Origin: Chryseolinea sp.
Lineage (GTDB): Bacteria; Bacteroidota; Bacteroidia; Cytophagales; Cyclobacteriaceae
DNA length: 64,000 nt
Direction: 5' to 3'
NCBI GenBank assembly: GCA_025923195.1
Contig: JAICGJ010000002.1
Span: 1-64,000 of the forward strand
This document shows positions 10,079-22,380 of the stretch, piece after piece (within the stretch, counting starts at the first letter, position 1; every line of letters begins with the position of its first letter). The notes beneath the pieces were generated by a model, which saw only the letters and a program-made list of their open reading frames with translations, did not search any database and was not told the origin of the DNA. A program made the position numbers and the translations under genes.

Positions 10079-12670
10079 TTGAAAGGACGTTTTAAGTACA
10101 TATTCATCCTCCTTTACCTTTTCGCGGCCGCAGCATGCTCACCAGAAAGAAATACCTGGACCAGCAAAGCCTACCATAATGCAACGGCCCACTACAACGG
10201 TTATTACTATGCAAAAGATGAGATTCAAAAAATAGAAAAAACCTTGTGGGAGAGCCTCATAGACGACTATAACAAAATACTCAGGCTTCATCCTCAACTG
10301 GATACTGCACTTGCCAGCGATTATGATGAACAAATCCAGGAGGCCATCAAAATGGCTTCGATTGCTATACAACGGCACCCGAACAGCAAATGGGTCGACG
10401 ACTGTTATATTCTTGTCGCCAAAGCGCGATTGTACAGCTTCGACTGGGGCAATGCCATTCAAACTCTTAAGTGGGTCAACTCGAAAAGCAAAGATCCCAA
10501 CGCGCGACACAAAGCAATCATCCAACTAGTCAGGACCTTCACAGAACATCAAGAATTTAATAACGGACAGGCTGCCATTGATTTTGTCGAGAAGGAGGAG
10601 TTAAACAAGGAGAACAGAAAGAACCTATTGATCGAAAAAGCATACTTTTTCCAGGAGCAGGAAGATTACGATAAAATGGTAAGAAACCTTACGGAGGTTG
10701 CCCCATTGCTCAAAAAGAAGGATAAACCAGGAAGGATCTATTTCATCATCGGTCAAGTATACCAAGAATTAGGATTTGAATCAGAAGCCTATAATTACTA
10801 CAAAAAATGTCTGTCTACGAATCCTGAATATGAGGTCGATTTTTATGCACGGCTTTACATGGCGCAGGTAACAGAAATTTCGCGAAGCAAGAGTGTCAAT
10901 GCCGCACGCAAGTCTTTCAAAAAACTTTTGAAAGACAATAAGAACAAAGAATTCAAAGACAAGATCTATTATGAGATGGGTGTGTTTGAATTCAAGCAGA
11001 AGAATTTAAATGAGGCAATCGCTCTTTTTAACAGATCGATTCGTGAAGGAACAAACAGGCGAATTGACGGCGAGGCTTACTTAAGGCTCGGTGAAATATA
11101 TTATGACACACTTCGTCAATACGAGTTGTCACAAGCGTACTATGATAGCGCAATAAATTCCCTGCCCAAAGACTACGAGCGCTATGAAGAAATTAAGGCA
11201 AGACAGGAAATACTTGATGACTTCGTAAAAAATCTCAACACGATAAAGTGGCAGGACAGCCTGCTCGTTCTTGCTAATTTGGATACAGCCGGTCTCAGAA
11301 TGATGATCGATTCTACCCTTCAGGCAAGAAAGGCTGTTGAGGATGCGAACCAGAGCAAGAAAAAAAGAAAGCGATCGAACAGGGTAGAAATCCTTTCTAA
11401 TACAAATAGTGTCTTCGATACTGGTGATGATTCTAATCAAACAACAGACTGGTATTTCGGCAATCTTTCTGCAATGAGCTTAGGCCAGTCGGAGTTCAGA
11501 AGGATCTGGGGCAACATTCCGCTTGAAGACAACTGGCGGCGATCGTTGCGCTCGTCTGCCCCAGGGCAACTTAACCAGAATGCCATCGAACCTGCTGGTC
11601 CGGCGCTAAGCGAGGAAAGTGTTTCAGATCAGGCCGCTCCGGTTGATCCTGTAGGGGTAGAGTTTGAACGTATCAATAATCAAATACCAAGAACTGAGGA
11701 ACAAAAAACTGCAGCATTGAAGTTAATTGAAGATTCCTATTACAGCCTGGGTGACATTTACTATTTCAAGCTGCTGGAAAAAGATAATGCCGTCGTCACC
11801 TACAATAAGTTGCTTGATCGTTTCCCAGAGACAGAATACGAACCCGAAATTCTCTACAAGCTTTATCTTTTCTACAAGGAAAGCGAAGATCCAAAATCGG
11901 AGCTGTATGCAAATCGCCTGAAAAGCGAGCACCCCAACTCGACATTTACTAAAATTCTTATCAACCCAGATTACCTAAAAGAGTCCAGCCAGGCCGTGGA
12001 AAAACAAAAGGCATTATATAAGACGGCCTACGAACAGTATGAAAATGGTGATTATGATTTGAGTCTCCAGACTATCGACGAGGCCTATACTATCGGTGAG
12101 AATAATTTTACCCCAGCGCTCGAGCTGCTGAAGATCCTTATTACTGGGAAAACAGATGACATCAATAAGTACCAATTCTTGTTAACCGAATTTATCAAAT
12201 CACACGGTGATCACGAAGTCGGCGCATATGCAAAAAAACTCCTGGAGGCATCACAAAGCTTTCAAAAGGATCAAGAGAAAAAAGACGGGATTCAATACAT
12301 ACGATCACTTGAAGAGCCTCACTACTTCCTTGTCGTTTACAAAAACGAAGAAAACATGAGTATGGCTGCATCCTCAGCGTTAGCAAGATTCAACGCTGAT
12401 ATTTTCAAAGAATTAAAGCTCAAAACAAGCAACCTGGTACTAAATGATATGTACACCCTAACACTTGTGGCAGATTTACCGGGAATAACTACCGCGCTTG
12501 ATTACATAAAGACATTCAACGAAAAGCTGCCTACCCTTACCGAGTTCCGAAACCATAAATTCCATAATTTTGTAATTACAAAAGACAATTTCGATATCTT
12601 TTACAGAACAAAAGGCCTTGATGAGTACCTCAAATTCTTCGAAAGGAACTATCCTGCAGAAATTCAATAA
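10079..12670 (+). CDS. porW: Type IX secretion/gliding TPR lipoprotein PorW/SprE
   Basis: A lipoprotein of 863 residues. Residues 1-20 are a signal peptide ending in the lipobox AAAC. The start of the mature part (residues 28-43, SKAYHNATAHYNGYYY) is characteristic of the SprE/PorW family. It is followed by tetratricopeptide repeats (about 85-400 and 560-760), a low-complexity basic stretch (430-440, KKKRKR) and a C-terminal globular domain. PorW links the periplasmic motor ring to the outer-membrane translocon and is needed for secretion and gliding. The start codon is TTG; it is the only start in frame that yields a complete lipoprotein signal. Confidence 0.9.
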   Translation: MKGRFKYIFILLYLFAAAACSPERNTWTSKAYHNATAHYNGYYYAKDEIQKIEKTLWESLIDDYNKILRLHPQLDTALASDYDEQIQEAIKMASIAIQRHPNSKWVDDCYILVAKARLYSFDWGNAIQTLKWVNSKSKDPNARHKAIIQLVRTFTEHQEFNNGQAAIDFVEKEELNKENRKNLLIEKAYFFQEQEDYDKMVRNLTEVAPLLKKKDKPGRIYFIIGQVYQELGFESEAYNYYKKCLSTNPEYEVDFYARLYMAQVTEISRSKSVNAARKSFKKLLKDNKNKEFKDKIYYEMGVFEFKQKNLNEAIALFNRSIREGTNRRIDGEAYLRLGEIYYDTLRQYELSQAYYDSAINSLPKDYERYEEIKARQEILDDFVKNLNTIKWQDSLLVLANLDTAGLRMMIDSTLQARKAVEDANQSKKKRKRSNRVEILSNTNSVFDTGDDSNQTTDWYFGNLSAMSLGQSEFRRIWGNIPLEDNWRRSLRSSAPGQLNQNAIEPAGPALSEESVSDQAAPVDPVGVEFERINNQIPRTEEQKTAALKLIEDSYYSLGDIYYFKLLEKDNAVVTYNKLLDRFPETEYEPEILYKLYLFYKESEDPKSELYANRLKSEHPNSTFTKILINPDYLKESSQAVEKQKALYKTAYEQYENGDYDLSLQTIDEAYTIGENNFTPALELLKILITGKTDDINKYQFLLTEFIKSHGDHEVGAYAKKLLEASQSFQKDQEKKDGIQYIRSLEEPHYFLVVYKNEENMSMAASSALARFNADIFKELKLKTSNLVLNDMYTLTLVADLPGITTALDYIKTFNEKLPTLTEFRNHKFHNFVITKDNFDIFYRTKGLDEYLKFFERNYPAEIQ

Positions 12671-14945
12671 AATTCTATTGCTTAAAAGCGACTGGTTTAA
12701 GAAAGCTGTTAAAGCAATTTGGATTCTATTTCTTTGCGTGCTTATTGGCGTACCCGTATACATTTACTCCGTCCGATTCGACCTTTTCGGACTTTTTGGA
12801 GGAATGCCCAGTCTCAAAGCTATTGAAAATCCTGAGAACGACTTGTCCTCCGAGTTGATATCTGCCGATGGCGTTTCACTCGGCAAGTACTTCCGCTACA
12901 ACAGAAGCCAGGTTACATACGATCAGTTATCACCAGACCTGGTAAATACATTGTTGTATTCGGAGGATCACCGGTTCTACAGCCACTCCGGTTTAGATTT
13001 TCAGGCCTACCTCCGAGTCCTCTACGGCATTCTCACTTTTAATTCATCTGCCAAAGGGGGAGGGAGCACAATTACGCAGCAATTGGCAAAAAATCTTTAC
13101 ACGCAAAACCCGGAACTGGACGGCAGCCTTTCAAGGCTTGGAAAGCTGCCCGGCAGAATTATACAAAAGACAAAAGAATGGATGATTGCGCTTCACCTTG
13201 AACGAAATTTTACTAAGGAGGAGATAATCGCGATGTATCTTAATACCAGTGATTTTAGCAGCAATGCCTATGGTATCAAGGTTGCCGCCCAAACATACTT
13301 TGGGAAGCAGCCTGACAGTTTAAATCTTGAAGAATCCGCGGTGTTAGTCGGAATGCTGCAGGCGCCCTCTTTTTATAATCCCAAACGGAATCCAAACAAT
13401 GCCCTGTCAAAACGAAATGAAGTGCTCTACAAGCTTTTAAAACATGGTTATATAAAAACCAGACAGGAATACGAGGAACTGAAGTTGCGACCGATCGAGT
13501 TAAAATATTCAGTAGAAAACCACAACGAAGGATTAGCGACCTATTTCAGGACCGTCATCAAATTTGATCTTATGAGGTGGTGTAAGGAACATGGTTATGA
13601 TCTTGAAGAATCGGGGTTAAAAATCTATACGACCATCGACAGCCGGATGCAGCGCTATGCGGAGGACGCTGTTGCTGAATCGATGAGACCACAACAAAAG
13701 ATTTTTGATGCCCACTGGAAGGGCAAAAATCCCTGGATCGACGACGAGGGAAATGAGTTGAAGGGATTTCTTGATTCCAGGATCAAACAGACTGAAGCAT
13801 ACCGAAATCTTTTGAAAAAATATGGTAAGGACAGCGACTCCATCAAGATCATGCTCAATGTTAAAAAGCCCATGACCGTTTTTACATGGAAAGGGGAGCG
13901 CGATACCTTATTTAGCTCGATAGATTCTCTCAACTACTACAAGCGTTTCCTGCGTGCCGGTTTCATGTCTATGGACTCGCAAACAGGCGCTATAAAGGCG
14001 TGGGTCGGCGATATCAATCACAAATACTTTAAGTACGACCATGTTCGCCAGGGAACCCGGCAGCCTGGTTCTGCATTCAAGCCTTTTGTTTATGGGTCGG
14101 CCATGGAGCTTGGATATAACCCATGCCTCAAACTTCAGGACGTTTCCCCAACGTTTAACGTGCCTGGGGGCACATGGACTCCGCCGAATGCCGAAGGCGA
14201 CAGGGGTACCGGCGAATGGATGAACCTTCGACAGGCCCTGGCACAATCAAAAAATTCAATAACCGCACAGCTGCTGCAACGAGTCGGGGCTGAAAGCGTG
14301 GTGGATTTTGCCAAGCGGGCGGGCATTAGAAGTCATTTGGACGCAGTGCCATCGTTATGTTTAGGGGTAAGTGATGTTTCTCTATTTGAACTTGTTGGAG
14401 CATACAGCACATTCGCAAACCTGGGTATTCATACCGAGCCTTTTTATATTGCTCGCATCGAGGACAAAAACGGGAACGTAATACAAAATTTCGTTCCTAA
14501 AACGCAACAAGCGATCAGCGAGCAAACGGCATTTAAGATGTTATACATGCTCATGGGTGGAGTAGAAGAGGCGGGGGGAACGTCCGTAGCGCTTCCATAT
14601 GATCTGAAAAAAGACAATGAGATTGGAGGAAAAACCGGTACGACCAACAACGCGTCAGATGGATGGTATATGGGCGTTACACACGACCTGGTTTCGGGTG
14701 CATGGGTCGGAGGAGACGAACGAAGCATTCATTTCCGGGATTGGTCGCTAGGACAGGGCGGTAAAACAGCCAGACCTATCTTTGCCAACTATATGCTAAA
14801 AGTATATGCAGATCCAACGTTGGACTATAAAAAGGGCCAGTTCAGAAGGCCAGCCACAGGATTAGACATGACCATGGACTGCAGTGCTTATGAAACTCCA
14901 CAAGATACCACGGAAGATACAGAGAAATGGGATCCTAATTTGTAA
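12621..14945 (+). CDS. mrcA: Class A penicillin-binding protein (PBP1A type)
   Basis: A bifunctional peptidoglycan synthase of 774 residues. A membrane helix (33-50) is followed by a GT51 glycosyltransferase domain with catalytic E115 in SEDHRFYSHSGLD and the motif KGGGSTITQQLAKN (145-158). The transpeptidase domain carries SxxK (QPGSAFKPF), SxN (SKNS) and KTG (GKTGTTNN). The start is uncertain: the ATG at 12621 lies 50 bases inside the end of porW and has an AAAGG six bases upstream; a TTG directly before it (12618) would also work. The gene is followed after 3 bases by uvrC, so the three genes form one transcription unit. Confidence 0.92.
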   Translation: MSTSNSSKGTILQKFNKILLLKSDWFKKAVKAIWILFLCVLIGVPVYIYSVRFDLFGLFGGMPSLKAIENPENDLSSELISADGVSLGKYFRYNRSQVTYDQLSPDLVNTLLYSEDHRFYSHSGLDFQAYLRVLYGILTFNSSAKGGGSTITQQLAKNLYTQNPELDGSLSRLGKLPGRIIQKTKEWMIALHLERNFTKEEIIAMYLNTSDFSSNAYGIKVAAQTYFGKQPDSLNLEESAVLVGMLQAPSFYNPKRNPNNALSKRNEVLYKLLKHGYIKTRQEYEELKLRPIELKYSVENHNEGLATYFRTVIKFDLMRWCKEHGYDLEESGLKIYTTIDSRMQRYAEDAVAESMRPQQKIFDAHWKGKNPWIDDEGNELKGFLDSRIKQTEAYRNLLKKYGKDSDSIKIMLNVKKPMTVFTWKGERDTLFSSIDSLNYYKRFLRAGFMSMDSQTGAIKAWVGDINHKYFKYDHVRQGTRQPGSAFKPFVYGSAMELGYNPCLKLQDVSPTFNVPGGTWTPPNAEGDRGTGEWMNLRQALAQSKNSITAQLLQRVGAESVVDFAKRAGIRSHLDAVPSLCLGVSDVSLFELVGAYSTFANLGIHTEPFYIARIEDKNGNVIQNFVPKTQQAISEQTAFKMLYMLMGGVEEAGGTSVALPYDLKKDNEIGGKTGTTNNASDGWYMGVTHDLVSGAWVGGDERSIHFRDWSLGQGGKTARPIFANYMLKVYADPTLDYKKGQFRRPATGLDMTMDCSAYETPQDTTEDTEKWDPNL

Positions 14946-14948
14946 CGG

Positions 14949-16736
14949 ATGGCGACGGATATTGATGATCGGCTAAGAGAAGTCGTTCAGCGCTTGCCGG
15001 ATTCCCCTGGAGTTTATAAATTTTACAACGATGAGAATACGCTGATCTATATTGGCAAAGCCAAAAGTATAAAAAAGCGGGTTAGCAGTTATTTTTCCAA
15101 GAGCTCTGGTATAAACCGTAAAACCCTGAAGCTTGTTTCTGAAATTGCCGCCATAGATTATACGGTGGCCAATTCGGAGTTTGATGCACTTCTTCTGGAA
15201 AACAATTTCATAAAGCAGAATCAACCGAAGTATAACATTCTCCTGAAGGATGATAAAACATTTCCATATATCTGTATTCTCAGAGAACGTTTCCCTCGGA
15301 TTATTTACACGCGGAAATACCTACCTGAACAAGGGGAATATTTTGGGCCGTACTCTAGCGTAGTAGCGATGAAGAATGTTCTGGAGTTGACAAGAAAGCT
15401 ATATTCGATCCGAACCTGCAGCTTATTGCTTAGTGAATCTAACATAGAACAGAGGAAGTTCAAGGTCTGTCTGGAATTCCACCTTGGAAATTGCAAGGGA
15501 CCCTGTGAGGGGCTTTACGACGAAATTTCCTACCGCGAGGAAATCGAGCAAGCGCGGAATATTCTGAAAGGAAATATGAACGTTGTCTATCAATATTTTA
15601 TAAAGCAGATGAAGGCTGCGTCTGCCAGTATGGAGTTCGAACGTGCGCAGCGTTACAAGGAAAAGCTGGATACGCTCGAAAGGTTTCAGTCCAAATCACT
15701 CGTCGTCAATCGTGAGATCACGGATATTGACGTATTCACGATCACAAGCACAGAAGAGTATGCCTATGTCAACTATCTGCAAATTAAGGAGGGTGCCATT
15801 ATTTTCTCTAAAACCATAGAACTGAAGAAAAAGCTGGACGAGCCAGACGAGGAATTGTTAAGTTTTTCGGCGTGGGAACTCCGCGAACAGGCCAACAGCG
15901 ATAATTCCCAGATCCTGACCAATATCCCTATCGTTGTACCTGAAGAAGATATTGAAAATATTGTCCCAAAGATTGGCGATAAGAAAAAGCTCATTGCACT
16001 ATCTCTGAAGAATGCGCTGGAAATGAAAAAAGACAAGGAAATTCTAAGGGAAGGAAAAAAGTCAAAACAACGCGAAGTGCTGTTAATGCTCCAAAAAGAT
16101 CTCCAGCTTCAGAACCCGCCCGTGATAATTGAGTGTTTCGACAATTCTAATTTCCAGGGAACAACGCCGGTGGCGTCAATGGTTCGATTCGCTGATGGCA
16201 AACCGGATAAAAAAAGTTATCGGCATTTCAATATCAAAACTGTGGAAGGACCTGACGATTTCGCTTCCATGAAAGAAATTGTCTTTCGACGGTATAAGAG
16301 GATCCTGGAAGAGGATGAAAAGCTACCTGATCTGATTGTGGTCGATGGAGGAAAGGGCCAGTTAAGCAGTGCCTGTGAAGCGTTAAAAGAGCTAAACATC
16401 TATGGGCAGGTTCCTGTCATTGGAATTGCCAAGAAGCTTGAAGAAATCTATTATCCTGAGGACCCCTTCCCGCTGCATATTAACAAAAAGTCGGCAGGCC
16501 TGCTGCTACTGCAGCAAATTCGCGACGAGGCACATCGGTTCGCTATTACCTTCCATCGTCAAAAACGAAGCAAAGGGCAATTAAAAACCGAAATACAGGG
16601 GTTAGAAGGAATCGGTGAGAAAACAGCGATGAAACTACTCAAGCACTTTAAGTCGGTTAAGAAGATCAAAGAGGCTTCGCTTGAAGAAATTGAGATAGTA
16701 ATAGGCAGAAAGAAAGCTGAAATTATCAAGAAATAA
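14949..16736 (+). CDS. uvrC: UvrABC excinuclease subunit C
   Basis: The nuclease that cuts on both sides of a lesion in nucleotide excision repair, 595 residues. The GIY-YIG domain is at the N-terminus (GVY 21-23, YIG 34-36), then the UVR motif (ERAQRYKEKLDTLE), the RNase H-like 5' incision domain starting at ECFDNSNFQG with LIVVDGGKGQLS, and a C-terminal helix-hairpin-helix (LEGIGEKTAMKLLKHF). All catalytic regions are present and length is normal. It is translationally close to the PBP gene. The partner uvrA lies 38 kb away. Confidence 0.97.
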   Translation: MATDIDDRLREVVQRLPDSPGVYKFYNDENTLIYIGKAKSIKKRVSSYFSKSSGINRKTLKLVSEIAAIDYTVANSEFDALLLENNFIKQNQPKYNILLKDDKTFPYICILRERFPRIIYTRKYLPEQGEYFGPYSSVVAMKNVLELTRKLYSIRTCSLLLSESNIEQRKFKVCLEFHLGNCKGPCEGLYDEISYREEIEQARNILKGNMNVVYQYFIKQMKAASASMEFERAQRYKEKLDTLERFQSKSLVVNREITDIDVFTITSTEEYAYVNYLQIKEGAIIFSKTIELKKKLDEPDEELLSFSAWELREQANSDNSQILTNIPIVVPEEDIENIVPKIGDKKKLIALSLKNALEMKKDKEILREGKKSKQREVLLMLQKDLQLQNPPVIIECFDNSNFQGTTPVASMVRFADGKPDKKSYRHFNIKTVEGPDDFASMKEIVFRRYKRILEEDEKLPDLIVVDGGKGQLSSACEALKELNIYGQVPVIGIAKKLEEIYYPEDPFPLHINKKSAGLLLLQQIRDEAHRFAITFHRQKRSKGQLKTEIQGLEGIGEKTAMKLLKHFKSVKKIKEASLEEIEIVIGRKKAEIIKK

Positions 16737-16781: not shown

Positions 16782-17696
16782 TTAAAATTCCCACAAGTTG
16801 TGTTCTTTTTCCATGAGCATCATCTCGGTCCATTCGCGGGCCCAGACACTCTCCTGGTACGGTCTTCCATTGTTGCGATAGATGTCTTCAATTCTATCGT
16901 CATCAGGGTTCTGTATTTTGTAAATGGAGCCTTTAAACAGTCTCAATAATATCGCATCTGCAAAGTTCTTGTTTTGTGCGGTATTTTGGCTGTTAAACCA
17001 AACGGCCTTTGGTATGTTGTTTCTAAAAAGTTTTTCGAGGTCCTTATACTTAAACCAGCCCAATGATCTTTCTATACCAGTATTAGTTTTTTCTCCAGGA
17101 ATCACTATTTCCATTCCCTGGATATCGTAATACAAGCGCGAGCGTCTTCTGTCAAAAATTATATCTTCCATCAAACGCAACGTGTACATATCAATTACCT
17201 GATACTCCAGCCCACTGCCCTGGGTAGTACTGGCCCAGTTGTCTACGGCATCCTCACTAGGCGTCACACCCTGACTATCTTGAACCGCTCTATAATTTCT
17301 GCCATTATGAGTAACAATATCGTCTGTATAGTAAGGCTGCGTGGGCGTCCAGGCCGGATAGGTCTGAGCCTGTTCAGCAATTAGCCCTTCCAGAAAATCT
17401 TCCTTGGAAAGTTTTCTGGTTAAAGAGTCACTCTGGTATACATCAGTAAGTTCGCCTGATTTGACAGCGTCTACTATGAGTTTGCTTATCTCACCATTCC
17501 TCGCGAAAAAACCTTTATTCTGTTTTTCCTTTAAGTCAATGGTTCGCCACACACGAACTTTGTAGTGCTGCTCATAGACAGGTATGGGGTTAAGGGAATT
17601 CGGGTTATACTGGATTTCCAAATCCTGAACTTCCTGCGCCACTGCTCCACTAAACGCAGAGGCTAGTAATACTATTATAAGTGACTTCTTCATCAT
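16782..17696 (-). CDS. gldN: Gliding motility/type IX secretion protein GldN with a chitin-binding-like insert
   Basis: The periplasmic partner of GldK in the ring of the type IX machine, 304 residues. The signal peptide ends at about AVAQ (residue 21). The N-terminal part (VRVWRTIDLKEKQN) and C-terminal part (LRLMEDIIFDRRRSRLYYDI, then GWFKYKDLEKLFRN) match GldN/PorN. Between them residues 113-156 carry a Trp/Tyr-rich segment (AWTPTQPYYTDDIVTHNGRN, then WAST) that resembles a CBM5/12 module and that I do not recognise from model GldN proteins. The start is an ATG at 17696 or 17693, one base after the gldM stop; an extension to 17864 inside gldM is rejected. Confidence 0.93.
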   Translation of the reverse strand: MMKKSLIIVLLASAFSGAVAQEVQDLEIQYNPNSLNPIPVYEQHYKVRVWRTIDLKEKQNKGFFARNGEISKLIVDAVKSGELTDVYQSDSLTRKLSKEDFLEGLIAEQAQTYPAWTPTQPYYTDDIVTHNGRNYRAVQDSQGVTPSEDAVDNWASTTQGSGLEYQVIDMYTLRLMEDIIFDRRRSRLYYDIQGMEIVIPGEKTNTGIERSLGWFKYKDLEKLFRNNIPKAVWFNSQNTAQNKNFADAILLRLFKGSIYKIQNPDDDRIEDIYRNNGRPYQESVWAREWTEMMLMEKEHNLWEF

Positions 17697-17697
17697 T

Positions 17698-19296
17698 TTA
17701 ATTAATTGGAATCTGAATGATTCCGCTCGATCCTTTAGGAACAACTTTTTCGTCTTCATCCTTAAAAGTTCTGCGGGAAACATCTTTAATATCAATAATA
17801 ATTCTATCACCAGATCTCGCCTGGCCAGTCCACGCGCGCAGGTCCGGATTTTCGTTTGTAGCATTCATTCTCTGAACGCCTGCAGTTCCACGACCTAAAA
17901 TAACTTCGGCTCTTCTGATTCTGTAACGAGCATCCTTTGGAACTTCGTCTTTGAAATTCTGCTCCGGTTCTGCTACAAAACGAAGCGCACCAAGTTGGTT
18001 TGCACGGATTCCCTGCCTCAGGTCAACGGGGTTGTTGCCCACATAAGCCACATAACGAGGATCCGGAACATTTCTTACATCGAAACCTTGCGTTCCGATA
18101 GAAGTTCCTCCGTTGCTCACAGCAACAGATATTTTCCGTTGCTTAGGAATAATAGTAACCCTCCCAGGTTTGTCACCTCTGATGATTTCTGCACCACCAC
18201 CGGCGGAGAAAGAAGGATTGTAGCTTGTGCCAAGTGCAGGCACTTCGATCAATACTGTATTGCCGCAATTCATGTAAAGTGTTGGTGCGTTACCAGTAGT
18301 CACACGGATAGTTGGCTGAGCAACTTCATATTCGATATTCTCAACGAATGTTCTGTCGTTCATCTTGATTTCGGCCTTGTATGATCTCTTCGCGAAGCCA
18401 TGAGAATCATAACCTCCACCCTGTGCTACAAATTCCACCTTACCCATTTTTACACCGGTCTTGTCTTCAATTACATTGAGTTTAGTGCCGTCCTTGTAAA
18501 ATTCAGGGAGGATGGCAGTTGAAGAACCAGTTAAGAACATTTCAGCTTCGTATTTAGCACCCGCTGCAACAACCGAAGATCTAGCTCTCACCATTGGAAC
18601 GAATTGATCGAAGCTGATCCTATCTGCTCCTGCATCTTCGCGCAGTTTGTCCAAGGCACGTGCCTCATACTCCAGTATTTCAGTCTGTGTTTGCGTAACA
18701 GACGCCAGCGCTGCAATGACAGGCGTGTTCTCAAATGTGAAAGTCAGGTAATCTTTTCGAACATGGTCGTCGTCACTCGCGAACAATGGAATTTCCTTTG
18801 GAGGTTTGGCAAGCTTATCGAAGTCTTTGATACCTGATAAATCACTGAGTTGTTTAACATAAGTAGTTAAAAGTGCTTCATATTTCTTGCCTTCCTGTTC
18901 TTTTGAGTTTGGATCAATCATCATCGTAGCGACCTTGGAGCTGTGGTCATTGATGACCCCCTCATCTACTTTGTTGGTTCCAGATTGCGCCAGCATTCTC
19001 AATTTCAACTGATCGATGTATTCTATCGTGCTTTTCGTAAGGTCTCTTACCTTCTGCGCTTTCTCTTTCGCCTCTACAACTTTCGGAACCTGACTTTTAC
19101 CAGCTTCTTCAATGATTGCTTGCATGGTCTGCTCGCTCTTTTTCTTGCCGTCTTCAATAAGAGTTGTCAACGTTTCATTGATGATAGCAAATTTTTCGAG
19201 TACCGCATTACTTACCTGCAGCGCGAGCAACGCCGTAAGCACGAGGTACATCATGCCTATCATTTTTTGACGCGGGGTTTCTTTTTTGCCTGCCAT
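17698..19296 (-). CDS. gldM: Gliding motility/type IX secretion motor protein GldM
   Basis: The long periplasmic shaft of the proton-driven motor, 532 residues. A short cytoplasmic N-terminus (AGKKETPRQKMIGMMY) leads into one membrane helix (about 14-33), followed by a helical domain and several Ig-like beta domains that reach the outer-membrane ring. Arg9, known to matter in the Flavobacterium protein, is conserved at the same position. The gene lies 39 bases after gldL and its stop is one base from the gldN start. Confidence 0.97.
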   Translation of the reverse strand: MAGKKETPRQKMIGMMYLVLTALLALQVSNAVLEKFAIINETLTTLIEDGKKKSEQTMQAIIEEAGKSQVPKVVEAKEKAQKVRDLTKSTIEYIDQLKLRMLAQSGTNKVDEGVINDHSSKVATMMIDPNSKEQEGKKYEALLTTYVKQLSDLSGIKDFDKLAKPPKEIPLFASDDDHVRKDYLTFTFENTPVIAALASVTQTQTEILEYEARALDKLREDAGADRISFDQFVPMVRARSSVVAAGAKYEAEMFLTGSSTAILPEFYKDGTKLNVIEDKTGVKMGKVEFVAQGGGYDSHGFAKRSYKAEIKMNDRTFVENIEYEVAQPTIRVTTGNAPTLYMNCGNTVLIEVPALGTSYNPSFSAGGGAEIIRGDKPGRVTIIPKQRKISVAVSNGGTSIGTQGFDVRNVPDPRYVAYVGNNPVDLRQGIRANQLGALRFVAEPEQNFKDEVPKDARYRIRRAEVILGRGTAGVQRMNATNENPDLRAWTGQARSGDRIIIDIKDVSRRTFKDEDEKVVPKGSSGIIQIPIN

Positions 19297-19335: not shown

Positions 19336-20157
19336 TTATGCGTTTTGTCCGCCACCTTTCATGGCTGTAAGCATGCTGCCATACACCTTGTTCAACGAAG
19401 TCAGATTATCTGTCAGCTTGCTGAGTTCAGTGGTGAACTTTGTAGTGTTATCACCTACCTTAGATAGTCCGTTCATTGCTCCTGTCAGGCTCTCATAGAA
19501 CTTGTTCATGTTCTTAACATGGCTATCAGCGTCTTTCAATTCCATTTCATAAACAGAATTTAACGCCGCAAGATTCTTAGTTACCTTCTGAACTTGTGAG
19601 TGATACTCACCAGCGTCCTTCGAAGCCTCAGACATACTCGATACAGCCTTAATAGCTACATCGTACGATTTATTCATCTCAAGAAGTTGTGACGATGCCT
19701 TCTTAACGTTCCCTGCATAGTCATTCGTAGCTACAGCAGCATCTGAAAGGTTGGTCATTTTCTTGGCAGATTCTGCCAGGTTATTAAGGCCCTTGCCCAG
19801 GCTATCCAGAAGTTCGGGTCCTATCTTGGCTTTCTCCAACGACACATCTAACTGCTGGGTCAATGAAACGCCAGGCTTGTTGGAGATTCTGGTGGGTACT
19901 GCAGGTGCTTCATAATCTTCTCCAAGTTCCGGATAAACTTTTGACCAATCTGGCTCCTGATGAGGAGGTTCAAAAGCACTTAGAAAGAATATTATAGCTT
20001 CTGTGGTTAATCCAATAAACAGCATCTGGTCAGCACCCTCATAGTGGAGAATTTTGAATAACGCACCAATAATTACGACTGCCGCACCAATACCATAAAC
20101 TTTTGGCATTATGGTTTTGTAGAGAAGTTCAACAAATCCGCCTTTTTTCTTGCTCAT
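19336..20157 (-). CDS. gldL: Gliding motility/type IX secretion motor protein GldL
   Basis: The inner-membrane stator of the gliding motor, 273 residues. Two membrane helices (about 18-36 and 45-61) form a hairpin. The second carries a buried glutamate (E53, in GLTTEAIIFFLSAFEPP) that corresponds to the proton-handling Glu of GldL. Residues 95-270 are a long helical cytoplasmic tail with repeated coiled-coil heptads. It is co-transcribed with gldK and gldM. Confidence 0.96.
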   Translation of the reverse strand: MSKKKGGFVELLYKTIMPKVYGIGAAVVIIGALFKILHYEGADQMLFIGLTTEAIIFFLSAFEPPHQEPDWSKVYPELGEDYEAPAVPTRISNKPGVSLTQQLDVSLEKAKIGPELLDSLGKGLNNLAESAKKMTNLSDAAVATNDYAGNVKKASSQLLEMNKSYDVAIKAVSSMSEASKDAGEYHSQVQKVTKNLAALNSVYEMELKDADSHVKNMNKFYESLTGAMNGLSKVGDNTTKFTTELSKLTDNLTSLNKVYGSMLTAMKGGGQNA

Positions 20158-20216: not shown

Positions 20217-21302
20217 TTAAAATTCCTGACCGGAAGAACGGCCCAAGTGAGTTAGTGCGCAACGGAACCCGATATACGCACGAGTCGAATCTTTAAATTC
20301 ATAAGTTCTTGTACCTGTCTCCAGGTAATAAGCGACGTCCTTCCAAGACCCACCGCGAACAACCTTTTTAGGAGGAACACGAGGGTTATATTTCGGACTT
20401 TCAGGATCAGTTCTGGGATCGATATACTGGGGATTCAAGTCCCACACGGTGGGTACAGACGCCGGATTGAAGTCATCCAGGCACCATTCAGAGACATTCC
20501 CCGACATATCGTACAAACCATAGTCATTGGGGAAGTACGCCTGAACCGGAGAGGAGTATGCGAAACCATCATCGTAGAAATTTCCACGGCCAGGCTTGAA
20601 GTTAGCCAGCATACAACCTTTTGAATTTCGAATATATGGGTTACCCCAGGGATATTTAGCCATGTCGCGACCGCCGCGGGCTGCGTACTCCCACTCTGCC
20701 TCGGAAGGCAGTCGGAAGGAAGGCATCGGGAAATCGCCAACGCTCTTTCTATAATCGTTTAGATAAGCAGTTCTCCATTGTCCGAAGAAGACTGCAGCGT
20801 CCCAATTTACACCTACCACAGGATAGTCATCATACCCAGGATGCCAGTAATAATAATCCTGAATTGGATCACCCATGTGGTGCGCAAAGTCTCTCACCCA
20901 CGCAGCTGTATCAGGATAATACTTCTGACGGAAGGTTTCAGCGTCAACTGTTTCGAATCCTTCAATACTTCCGTTATCAACCAGGAAAAAGTTTGTGAAC
21001 TGACGATACTCGTTGTTTGTAATCTCGGTATCATCCATAAAGAACGAGCCAATCGTCACTTGCTTATTGAAGTTGATCTGCGTAGATGCAGGGTCTTCAT
21101 CCGCCTGACCCATGTGGAAAGTACCTGACGGAATTGGAACCATGCCATAGGGAATGGTCATGACCCAACCCTCGCGTCCAGGAACGCCAACCAGTTCACC
21201 CTGATCGCCGCCCTTATTGCCGCCCAGTCCTAATAATCCACAAGCGCTGACTCCAGCACCAGCTAGAATTAAAAGTATTTTAGAAACAACTGCTTTATTC
21301 AT
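20217..21302 (-). CDS. gldK: Gliding motility lipoprotein GldK
   Basis: The ring lipoprotein of the type IX machine, 361 residues. The signal peptide ends in the lipobox VSAC (Cys21). A formylglycine-generating-enzyme-like (FGE/SUMF1) domain fills residues 50-355, seen from IPSGTFHMGQADEDP, then LPSEAEWEYAARGG, NVSEWCLDDF and VVRGGSWKD. In GldK this domain is structural. I recall the Flavobacterium and Porphyromonas proteins as roughly 100 residues longer, so this one appears compact. It follows porP/sprF after 127 bases. Confidence 0.93.
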   Translation of the reverse strand: MNKAVVSKILLILAGAGVSACGLLGLGGNKGGDQGELVGVPGREGWVMTIPYGMVPIPSGTFHMGQADEDPASTQINFNKQVTIGSFFMDDTEITNNEYRQFTNFFLVDNGSIEGFETVDAETFRQKYYPDTAAWVRDFAHHMGDPIQDYYYWHPGYDDYPVVGVNWDAAVFFGQWRTAYLNDYRKSVGDFPMPSFRLPSEAEWEYAARGGRDMAKYPWGNPYIRNSKGCMLANFKPGRGNFYDDGFAYSSPVQAYFPNDYGLYDMSGNVSEWCLDDFNPASVPTVWDLNPQYIDPRTDPESPKYNPRVPPKKVVRGGSWKDVAYYLETGTRTYEFKDSTRAYIGFRCALTHLGRSSGQEF

Positions 21303-21429: not shown

Positions 21430-22380
21430 TTAGTGCCTATACCGAGGGGTTCGAACGACTTTTTTACCGCTGCCCGGATTAACCGGTAAGTCATAACTCA
21501 GCATGACCTCCAGGGAAAAATTTTCCTTTGCGGCACGGTCCTTGACTACAAAATCCACGGCAGTGCCAAATTTCAGGGATTTATCCTTTAACAGGCTGTA
21601 TCCTAGTAATAAACTCGCCGCCTCAGACTGTCTAAACGCTAAACCTCCCCACATCGTATCTTTGATGTATGCAATTCCTGCAACATCAAATTGGGTCTTA
21701 TTTAGATCGGTTCTAACATTGGTGCTGAATTGCACTTTTAAATCAAAACTGACTTCGTAAAAATAACCTCCAGTAAAATTAATGTGATTAGCGAGAGCAC
21801 CTCTTACGCTATCCGCTCCGAAATCAAACTTCGAACGGAGCAAGTGATTAAATCCAACACCAGCATAATACTTCTCTGTGCGATAGAAAATTCCAGCACC
21901 GATATCAGGTCTGGTCTGTGACTCCTTACCATCAACGATCAGCGGGTCGCCTTCTTGTATGTAACGATAATATTTTCCATTAATGGTCTGCGAATAAATT
22001 CCAACCTTAACGCCAAAACTCAATTTAGTTTCTTTTATTCCTAAGTGATAGGCGTACGAAACTTGTGCTTCAAGATTATTCTGTGGACCAAGCTGGTCAC
22101 GCAGAACATATACGCCGGCACCACTTCTTAATTTGTAAATCGGTGTGTTAAAACTCGCCATCGTAGTGGTGGGTGCCCCTCCATCTCCAAAACTTGATTG
22201 ATATCCGATCCACTGGCTGCGATGAATTGCTGAAAATCTTGTTACGCCATCAACACCAGCAAATGCGGGGGTCATGTATAAGTTGTTAAACATGTACTGC
22301 GTAAAGAGGGCATCTTGCTGCGCAAAAACACCTGCTCCAAAAAGGCATAGCACCAACGTATAAAAAGTCCTTCTCAGCAT
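21430..22380 (-). CDS. Type IX secretion outer-membrane protein PorP/SprF family
   Basis: A protein of 316 residues with a signal peptide (ending GVFAQ, about residue 20) followed by the family hallmark QDALFTQYMFNNLYMTPAFAG, split across strands of a small beta-barrel. Proteins of this family sit in the outer membrane and often work with one specific secreted adhesin. Its place directly before gldKLMN repeats the porP-porK-L-M-N order of Porphyromonas, which suggests it is the core PorP and not an adhesin-linked SprF copy. Its last residues are basic, not a C-terminal aromatic. Confidence 0.88.
   Translation of the reverse strand: MLRRTFYTLVLCLFGAGVFAQQDALFTQYMFNNLYMTPAFAGVDGVTRFSAIHRSQWIGYQSSFGDGGAPTTTMASFNTPIYKLRSGAGVYVLRDQLGPQNNLEAQVSYAYHLGIKETKLSFGVKVGIYSQTINGKYYRYIQEGDPLIVDGKESQTRPDIGAGIFYRTEKYYAGVGFNHLLRSKFDFGADSVRGALANHINFTGGYFYEVSFDLKVQFSTNVRTDLNKTQFDVAGIAYIKDTMWGGLAFRQSEAASLLLGYSLLKDKSLKFGTAVDFVVKDRAAKENFSLEVMLSYDLPVNPGSGKKVVRTPRYRH

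Follow-up and report, generated by a model that had tools for sequence, protein, structure and literature searches.

A CBM5/12-fold domain lacking the usual chitin-binding aromatic pair is inserted in GldN at a Chryseolinea type IX secretion locus

In the type IX secretion system (T9SS) of Porphyromonas gingivalis, PorK and PorN form a ring (9mzu, 9ots, 9myj, 7pvh). According to excerpts of PMC12421860, whose numbering of the PorN loops we follow, PorN residues F156-D162 sit in PorK, PorK contacts PorN loop 7, the D4 domain of PorM binds PorN loops 4 and 6, and contacts between PorN molecules are weak. Portions of PMC12635249 place the tip of PorM in the cleft between neighbouring PorN molecules on the periplasmic face, in a model whose confidence metrics are weak, and treat the PorKN ring and the gliding track as relatives, the ring being the smaller. 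There is continuing debate over how the PorLM/GldLM motor moves the PorKN/GldKN ring or track. Here we describe GldN, the counterpart of PorN, encoded in a 64,000-nucleotide stretch of a Chryseolinea sp. genome (GCA_025923195.1, contig JAICGJ010000002.1, positions 1 to 64,000; hereafter the window). Like P. gingivalis PorN and the GldN proteins of PF19841 and TIGR03523, it has the same subunit core, an aligned PorK-docking hairpin and the gldKLMN gene order. Unlike P. gingivalis PorN, it has a folded domain of about 50 residues in the loop before the hairpin strand.

The inserted domain belongs by sequence and predicted fold to the family 5/12 carbohydrate-binding modules (CBM5/12). It resembles the modules of ChiC (2d49/1wvv), ChiB, chitin-oligosaccharide deacetylases, ChiA1 (1ed7) and 2rts in its profile, its small three-stranded sheet and its core Trp and Tyr positions. 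Unlike them, it has no consecutive aromatic pair and lies within a subunit of a secretion machine, not beside an enzyme. CBM5/12 modules habitually sit on secreted carbohydrate-active proteins, and the domain inside GldN departs from that habit. Excerpts of PMC8449059 describe the Y282-W283 pair of CjCBM5 as nearly fully conserved in CBM5 and attribute to such pairs an important part in chitin binding.

Scanning the whole protein with PF02839 (CBM_5_12) gave a match at residues 114-151 (E = 9.3e-6) whose 26.0 bits fell just under the cut-off of 26.2. A 57-residue segment of GldN scored above this gathering threshold on its own (29.3 bits, E = 8.9e-7), and when the entire 6.57 Mb genome was searched in six frames, gldN gave the sole match at E ≤ 0.001, at 28.4 bits and over the cut-off. 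Recent local duplication of another CBM of the genome was rejected as the source, there being no second PF02839 match at that threshold. The original prediction, made from the letters of the window, had placed the module at 17229-17360 and called it residues 113-156; these coordinates correspond to residues 112-155, and the order it described (Trp, Tyr, D-x-V-x-x-x-G-x-x-Y, Pro, Trp) is present there. A similarity search with the whole GldN protein found 51 related loci; by eye, 49 of them show this pattern, incompletely in two, and L052 and L053 lack it. PF02839 by itself matches 37 of the 47 GldN proteins aligned, namely that of the window and those of 46 of the 51 loci. In an alignment of 50 inserts, Tyr134, Pro145 and Trp153 are invariant, and Trp115 is retained in at least 90% of rows. 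Across the rows compared, the Tyr121 position is nearly always aromatic. Equated by spacing, Tyr121 and Trp153 would be the core residues Y265 and W299 of CjCBM5.

A profile built from 50 insert segments matched 29 PDB sequences at E ≤ 1, most of them chitinases, chitin deacetylases and isolated chitin-binding modules (2rts, E = 1.1e-6; 2d49, 9e-5; 4ny2, 3e-4; 1ed7, 1.6e-3). The second-ranked match was a region in a DUF3472 protein (8pn5, 3.7e-5), and the remaining ones were some phage tail proteins and a few weak matches that are seemingly unrelated.

The AlphaFold2 model of full-length GldN had a mean predicted local distance difference test (pLDDT) score of 83 and a predicted template modelling score of 0.73, with blocks across the insert at about 78-89; the domain modelled alone reached a pLDDT of 94.3. 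It is predicted to form the three-stranded antiparallel sheet of the CBM5/12 fold, with strands at residues 126-129, 132-136 and 153-156. In Foldseek searches the domain matched ChiC 1wvv with a TMq of 0.80, and in the Foldseek and VIA comparisons it superposed on the best solved CBM5/12 members with a root-mean-square deviation (rmsd) of 1.1-1.6. In VIA comparisons, the domain alone reached Z scores of up to 8.2 against chitin-binding domains, and the best rows for residues ~111-160 against chitinases and chitin-oligosaccharide deacetylases had Z ~8 and rmsd 0.8-2.0. Because these modest Z scores agree with the sequence profiles, we consider the fold assignment firm: GldN carries a real and complete CBM5/12-fold domain. 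The remainder of the protein is a PorN core. All five Foldseek matches of the full model at E < 0.001 were PorN (9ots_D, E = 1.7e-9), followed in the next ranks listed (E = 0.004-0.1) mostly by CBM5-bearing chains and by some phage tail or contractile-injection proteins, and VIA aligned 198 residues of the core with PorN 9mzu_B at Z 18.6 and rmsd 2.9. The inserted CBM5/12-like module of the original prediction is thus borne out by PF02839, by the PDB matches of the insert profile and by a confident model of a CBM-like fold.

The domain has kept its fold and lost the pair of residues by which such modules usually bind chitin. Consecutive aromatics occupy this place in none of 69 GldN inserts (0/69), as against 20 of 21 CBM5/12 domains from large open reading frames (ORFs) of the same bacterial family. 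At the second position of the pair, 60 of the 69 inserts have Asp and 6 have Asn, as against Trp in 20 of the 21 enzyme domains. The controls, 21 domains in 20 regions, were mostly the best-scoring PF02839 places, a choice that favours canonical domains, and the exception among them, L241, indicates that modules without the pair exist elsewhere too. The earlier suggestion that a ring subunit had gained a carbohydrate-binding patch accordingly found no backing here, the window's GldN having Gln138-Asp139 in place of the pair, though the insert could still bind another glycan or use another surface. A CBM5/12 match on GldN should not be taken as chitin binding.

We next consider where the domain occurs. 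GldN is encoded in 145 of 148 genomes of the window's GTDB family. PF02839 matches somewhere in 29 of the 148, and in 18 of those 29 one match lies inside gldN. Of 109 GldN loci read from the family, 29 had the domain in regular or diverged form. Such fractions are not prevalences, as the 110 family loci combined the 30 best matches with 80 picked by hand across genera, and the order loci were the 30 best. Carriers belong to one branch within the Cyclobacteriaceae/Fulvivirgaceae group and include Chryseolinea, Ohtaekwangia, Dawidia, Chryseosolibacter, Fulvivirga and many metagenome-assembled genomes. When the insert profile was run against order-level (390) and class-level (295) genome samples, matches above 36 bits came only from the window's family; there were 10 in the order sample and 3, among the same 10, in the class sample. 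All 10 were gldN, 7 by falling at known gldN places and three by reading of the sequence. Three weaker matches from outside the family, in ORFs of 286, 294 and 386 residues, were read and none was GldN; other weaker ones were judged from ORF length alone. The profile was made from 50 of the same rows that it later scored, and it is incomplete, missing the most diverged inserts, such as G064, G144 and G173 in the order search. Weak insert scores of 11.4-22.5 bits were obtained for L162, L165 and L170, and L180, which fell under the scoring threshold, was recognized as an insert by eye for the family count and for the 71-row tree described below.

GldN was recovered from 219 of 222 loci (L107, L215 and L220 were missed), leaving 207 rows after removal of L002 and 11 duplicates, and 205 after removal of L050 and L051, which were too short. 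The insert is absent, by alignment, from P. gingivalis PorN and from the 26 class-level GldN rows read, a comparison in which GldN of Flavobacterium johnsoniae itself was not examined; the original prediction likewise recognized no such module in GldN or PorN of model organisms. The GldN insertion loop varies greatly between lineages, and rows lacking the domain have either nothing or a linker there. Between the anchors F100 and E176, the 79 family rows without the domain have 24-84 residues, 30 rows from other families of the order have 49-127, many of them low-complexity, and the 26 class-level rows have 30-77. At the order loci L054-L083 and L209, the loop is a long linker of low complexity, made for example of repeated DDGWG-P-KK blocks, and the anchors are up to 127 residues apart.

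The history of the domain was read from trees of GldN. In an IQ-TREE phylogeny of the GldN core, computed without the insert columns from 71 rows picked by hand from the 205, with two class-level rows as the root, all 39 insert-bearing rows grouped in one clade (support 100/99), and the insert state changed once, as against a mean of 23.6 changes when shuffled. A FastTree phylogeny of all 205 rows gave 2 changes as against 56.9. The sole row scored as lacking the insert within the FastTree insert clade was L180, where a diverged insert was recognized by eye and which in the IQ-TREE phylogeny nests deep inside the clade with L165 and L170. Since the insert-bearing GldN proteins group together when the tree is built from the remaining protein, the domain was gained once and has been inherited vertically over a long time, with strong divergence in one sub-lineage. 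That sub-lineage (L165, L170, L180 and L247; genus code g4) has a strongly diverged domain, and three of its four members are on the tree, where the GldN branch is long. No clean loss of the domain was found among the rows read, and members of the insert clade are down to ~50% identical. The ratio of nonsynonymous to synonymous substitution rates (omega) of the insert was computable in 9 of 16 pairs, the window's own pair being among the 7 others; it was 0.007-0.089 in eight of the nine and 0.385 in the ninth. The domain is kept folded under purifying selection.

Placement in the secretion machine was deduced from alignment to PorN. The insert corresponds to PorN residues ~123-133, in the numbering of PMC12421860 counted back from F156. 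In the AlphaFold2 model, the strand that follows the insert (residues 171-181) ends in the FDRRRSR hairpin, and the insert lies at the opposite strand end. The insert lies at the far end of GldN from the hairpin that docks GldK, probably near the loops that face GldM. It would protrude from the side of the GldN layer that faces away from the outer membrane and GldK, near the loops at which PorM D4 binds PorN. We give about even chances to the proposal that the CBM5/12 fold has been turned to protein contacts within the T9SS ring or track. In that role, the domain might give the GldM motor arm a further surface to dock on. Alternatively, it might clamp adjacent GldN subunits together, contacts between their PorN counterparts being weak. 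As each GldN has a single copy, dozens would be arrayed around the ring or along the gliding track.

Several observations count against a protein-contact role. The proposed contact partner was deduced from the PorN alignment and the cited papers, and the insertion loop was equated with PorN loop 6 or an adjacent loop from the order of the labels, not from coordinates. At the first position of the pair, 17 of the 69 inserts still have an aromatic residue (15 Phe, 2 Tyr), mostly in Fulvivirga-like rows, and at least one aromatic lies between Tyr134 and Trp153 in 27 of 69; inserts that retain aromatics could still bind sugar weakly. In 15 of 16 pairs the insert had a higher nonsynonymous rate (dN) than the core, a difference that would equally suit a simple spacer. 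Finally, T4 capsid chains, which offer a precedent for a contact role (see below), match weakly in the fold lists, at Z ~5, as is common for small folds.

Some of these points feed two alternatives. One is that the domain binds a glycan, most likely peptidoglycan or periplasmic O-glycans, by some surface outside the aromatic pair, thereby steadying the ring or track on the cell wall or letting it slide there. Membership of CBM5/12 in both sequence and fold, the periplasmic location implied by GldN, the Phe or Tyr residues just mentioned and the glycosylation of PorK and PorN themselves, reported in portions of PMC12635249, speak for this idea; we nonetheless hold it to be unlikely, as 42 of the 69 inserts, the window's included, have no aromatics at all between Tyr134 and Trp153. 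The other is that the domain is a folded spacer with no specific partner, held by chance by one lineage in a loop that tolerates many inserts. The variability of the insertion site (24-127 residues between the anchors in rows without the domain) would suit a spacer, as would the faster change of the insert than of the core and its strong divergence in the g4 sub-lineage. Against this stand the single gain with no clean loss among the rows read, retention in clade members as dissimilar as those noted above, the low omega in eight of nine computable pairs, and the Asp or Asn at the second position of the pair in 66 of 69 inserts, and we regard a spacer as somewhat improbable. That the resemblance is fortuitous, or that the segment is an ordinary part of the GldN core, is very improbable indeed. 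The whole-protein Pfam score just short of its curated cut-off is the point in favour of chance, which we rejected given that genome-wide, profile, fold and model evidence agree. The segment is likewise no shared part of all GldN proteins, as most of the rows read, 138 out of 205 with L180 included in that count, are without it; the survey of orthologues proposed with the original prediction thus sets it apart from the core fold.

A comparable reuse in a protein-contact role is on record. Excerpts of PMC3185693 describe a chitin-binding-like insertion domain in the T4 capsid protein that bridges neighbouring molecules. As in GldN, a small fold of this kind is inserted in the subunit of a repeating assembly; unlike the ring or track, the T4 assembly is unrelated. 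The T4 capsid shows that reuse of the proposed kind is possible, not that it occurs in GldN. Phage tail-fibre modules (8fqc, 9rkv, 8kec) are also alike in matching the fold within proteins of a structural machine, and unlike in their tail-fibre context.

A natural folded insert near the proposed motor contact, gained once and retained, is a ready-made probe of that interface, and it would be a case of a chitin-binding fold put to new use in a secretion machine. Judged by their listings, none of the papers listed in a literature search, over a collection without most subscription titles, seems to report a CBM in GldN or PorN, and the excerpts of PMC7440613, PMC4910214 and PMC5127042 draw no link between GldN/PorN and chitin binding. 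Both Pfam matches on such GldN proteins may already be visible in domain databases.

A bolder and rather improbable picture is that, in this clade, dozens of repurposed CBM5/12 domains, perhaps derived from a T9SS cargo protein, stud the T9SS ring or gliding track on its motor side. Together they would make up an additional layer of contacts that links the track to the GldM motor arms or allows it to run along peptidoglycan. If true, this would amount to a lineage-specific change at the machine's drive interface. At L245, L246 and the PF02839 places in large ORFs, CBM5/12 domains occur in large or secreted-looking ORFs; in L246, KWWTQ is present and the C-terminal region resembles, by eye, a T9SS sorting domain. 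T9SS cargo may have supplied the GldN domain.

The features of the locus are collected in Table 1.

Table 1. Features of the gldN locus in the window, with the evidence for each
Feature	Coordinates	Strand	Basis
CBM5/12-fold insert in GldN, residues ~107-157 (Pfam match 114-151)	17223..17375	-	PF02839, PDB profile, AlphaFold2, Foldseek, VIA
Conserved positions kept in the domain: Trp115, Tyr121, Tyr134, Pro145, Trp153	17235..17351	-	50-row alignment
Gln138-Asp139, replacing consecutive sugar-stacking aromatics (CjCBM5 Y282-W283; equated by spacing)	17277..17282	-	Column counts
Hairpin FDRRRSR, residues 180-186, equivalent to PorN F156-D162 (docks into PorK)	17136..17156	-	Profile alignment to PorN chains
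gldN/porN (T9SS ring/track subunit, 303 aa)	16782..17693	-	TIGR03523, PF19841, PorN fold match
gldM, motor protein; PorM counterpart touches PorN	17698..19296	-	TIGR03517, 296 bits > 180
gldL	19336..20157	-	TIGR03513, 254 bits > 68.3
gldK, lipoprotein, ring/track partner of GldN	20217..21302	-	TIGR03525, 446 bits > 350
PorP/SprF family membrane protein, upstream of gldK, same strand	21430..22380	-	TIGR03519, 231 bits > 90.55

GldN scored 122 bits against the TIGR03523 equivalog, above its cut-off of 85.9, and 210.7 bits (E = 2.9e-62) against PF19841, whose cut-off is 23. Its gene is the last of a porP/sprF-gldK-gldL-gldM-gldN run. We set the start of gldN at 17693, directly after gldM; the program-made ORF begins earlier, at 17864, within gldM. 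The N-terminal MKKSLIIVLLASAFSGAVAQ resembles a signal peptide by eye, and GldN is probably periplasmic. Asp89 and Ser90 are invariant in the 47-row alignment, and residues 89-91 (17421-17429 of the window) read D-S-L, which we take to fit the O-glycosylation motif of Bacteroidota; with PorN reported to be glycosylated, they may mark a glycosylation site near the insert. No repeats of at least 14 bases were found within gldN.

Elsewhere in the genome, a GldJ-like ORF lies at C1:77630-78757, with pieces that score well under the curated cut-off, and gliding-track parts may accordingly exist in this Chryseolinea. In the window, three plus-strand ORFs read by eye converge on gldN. They encode an 863-residue protein with repeat-like helices (10079-12670), a 775-residue protein with the look of a penicillin-binding protein (12618-14945) and a 595-residue UvrC-like protein (14949-16736).
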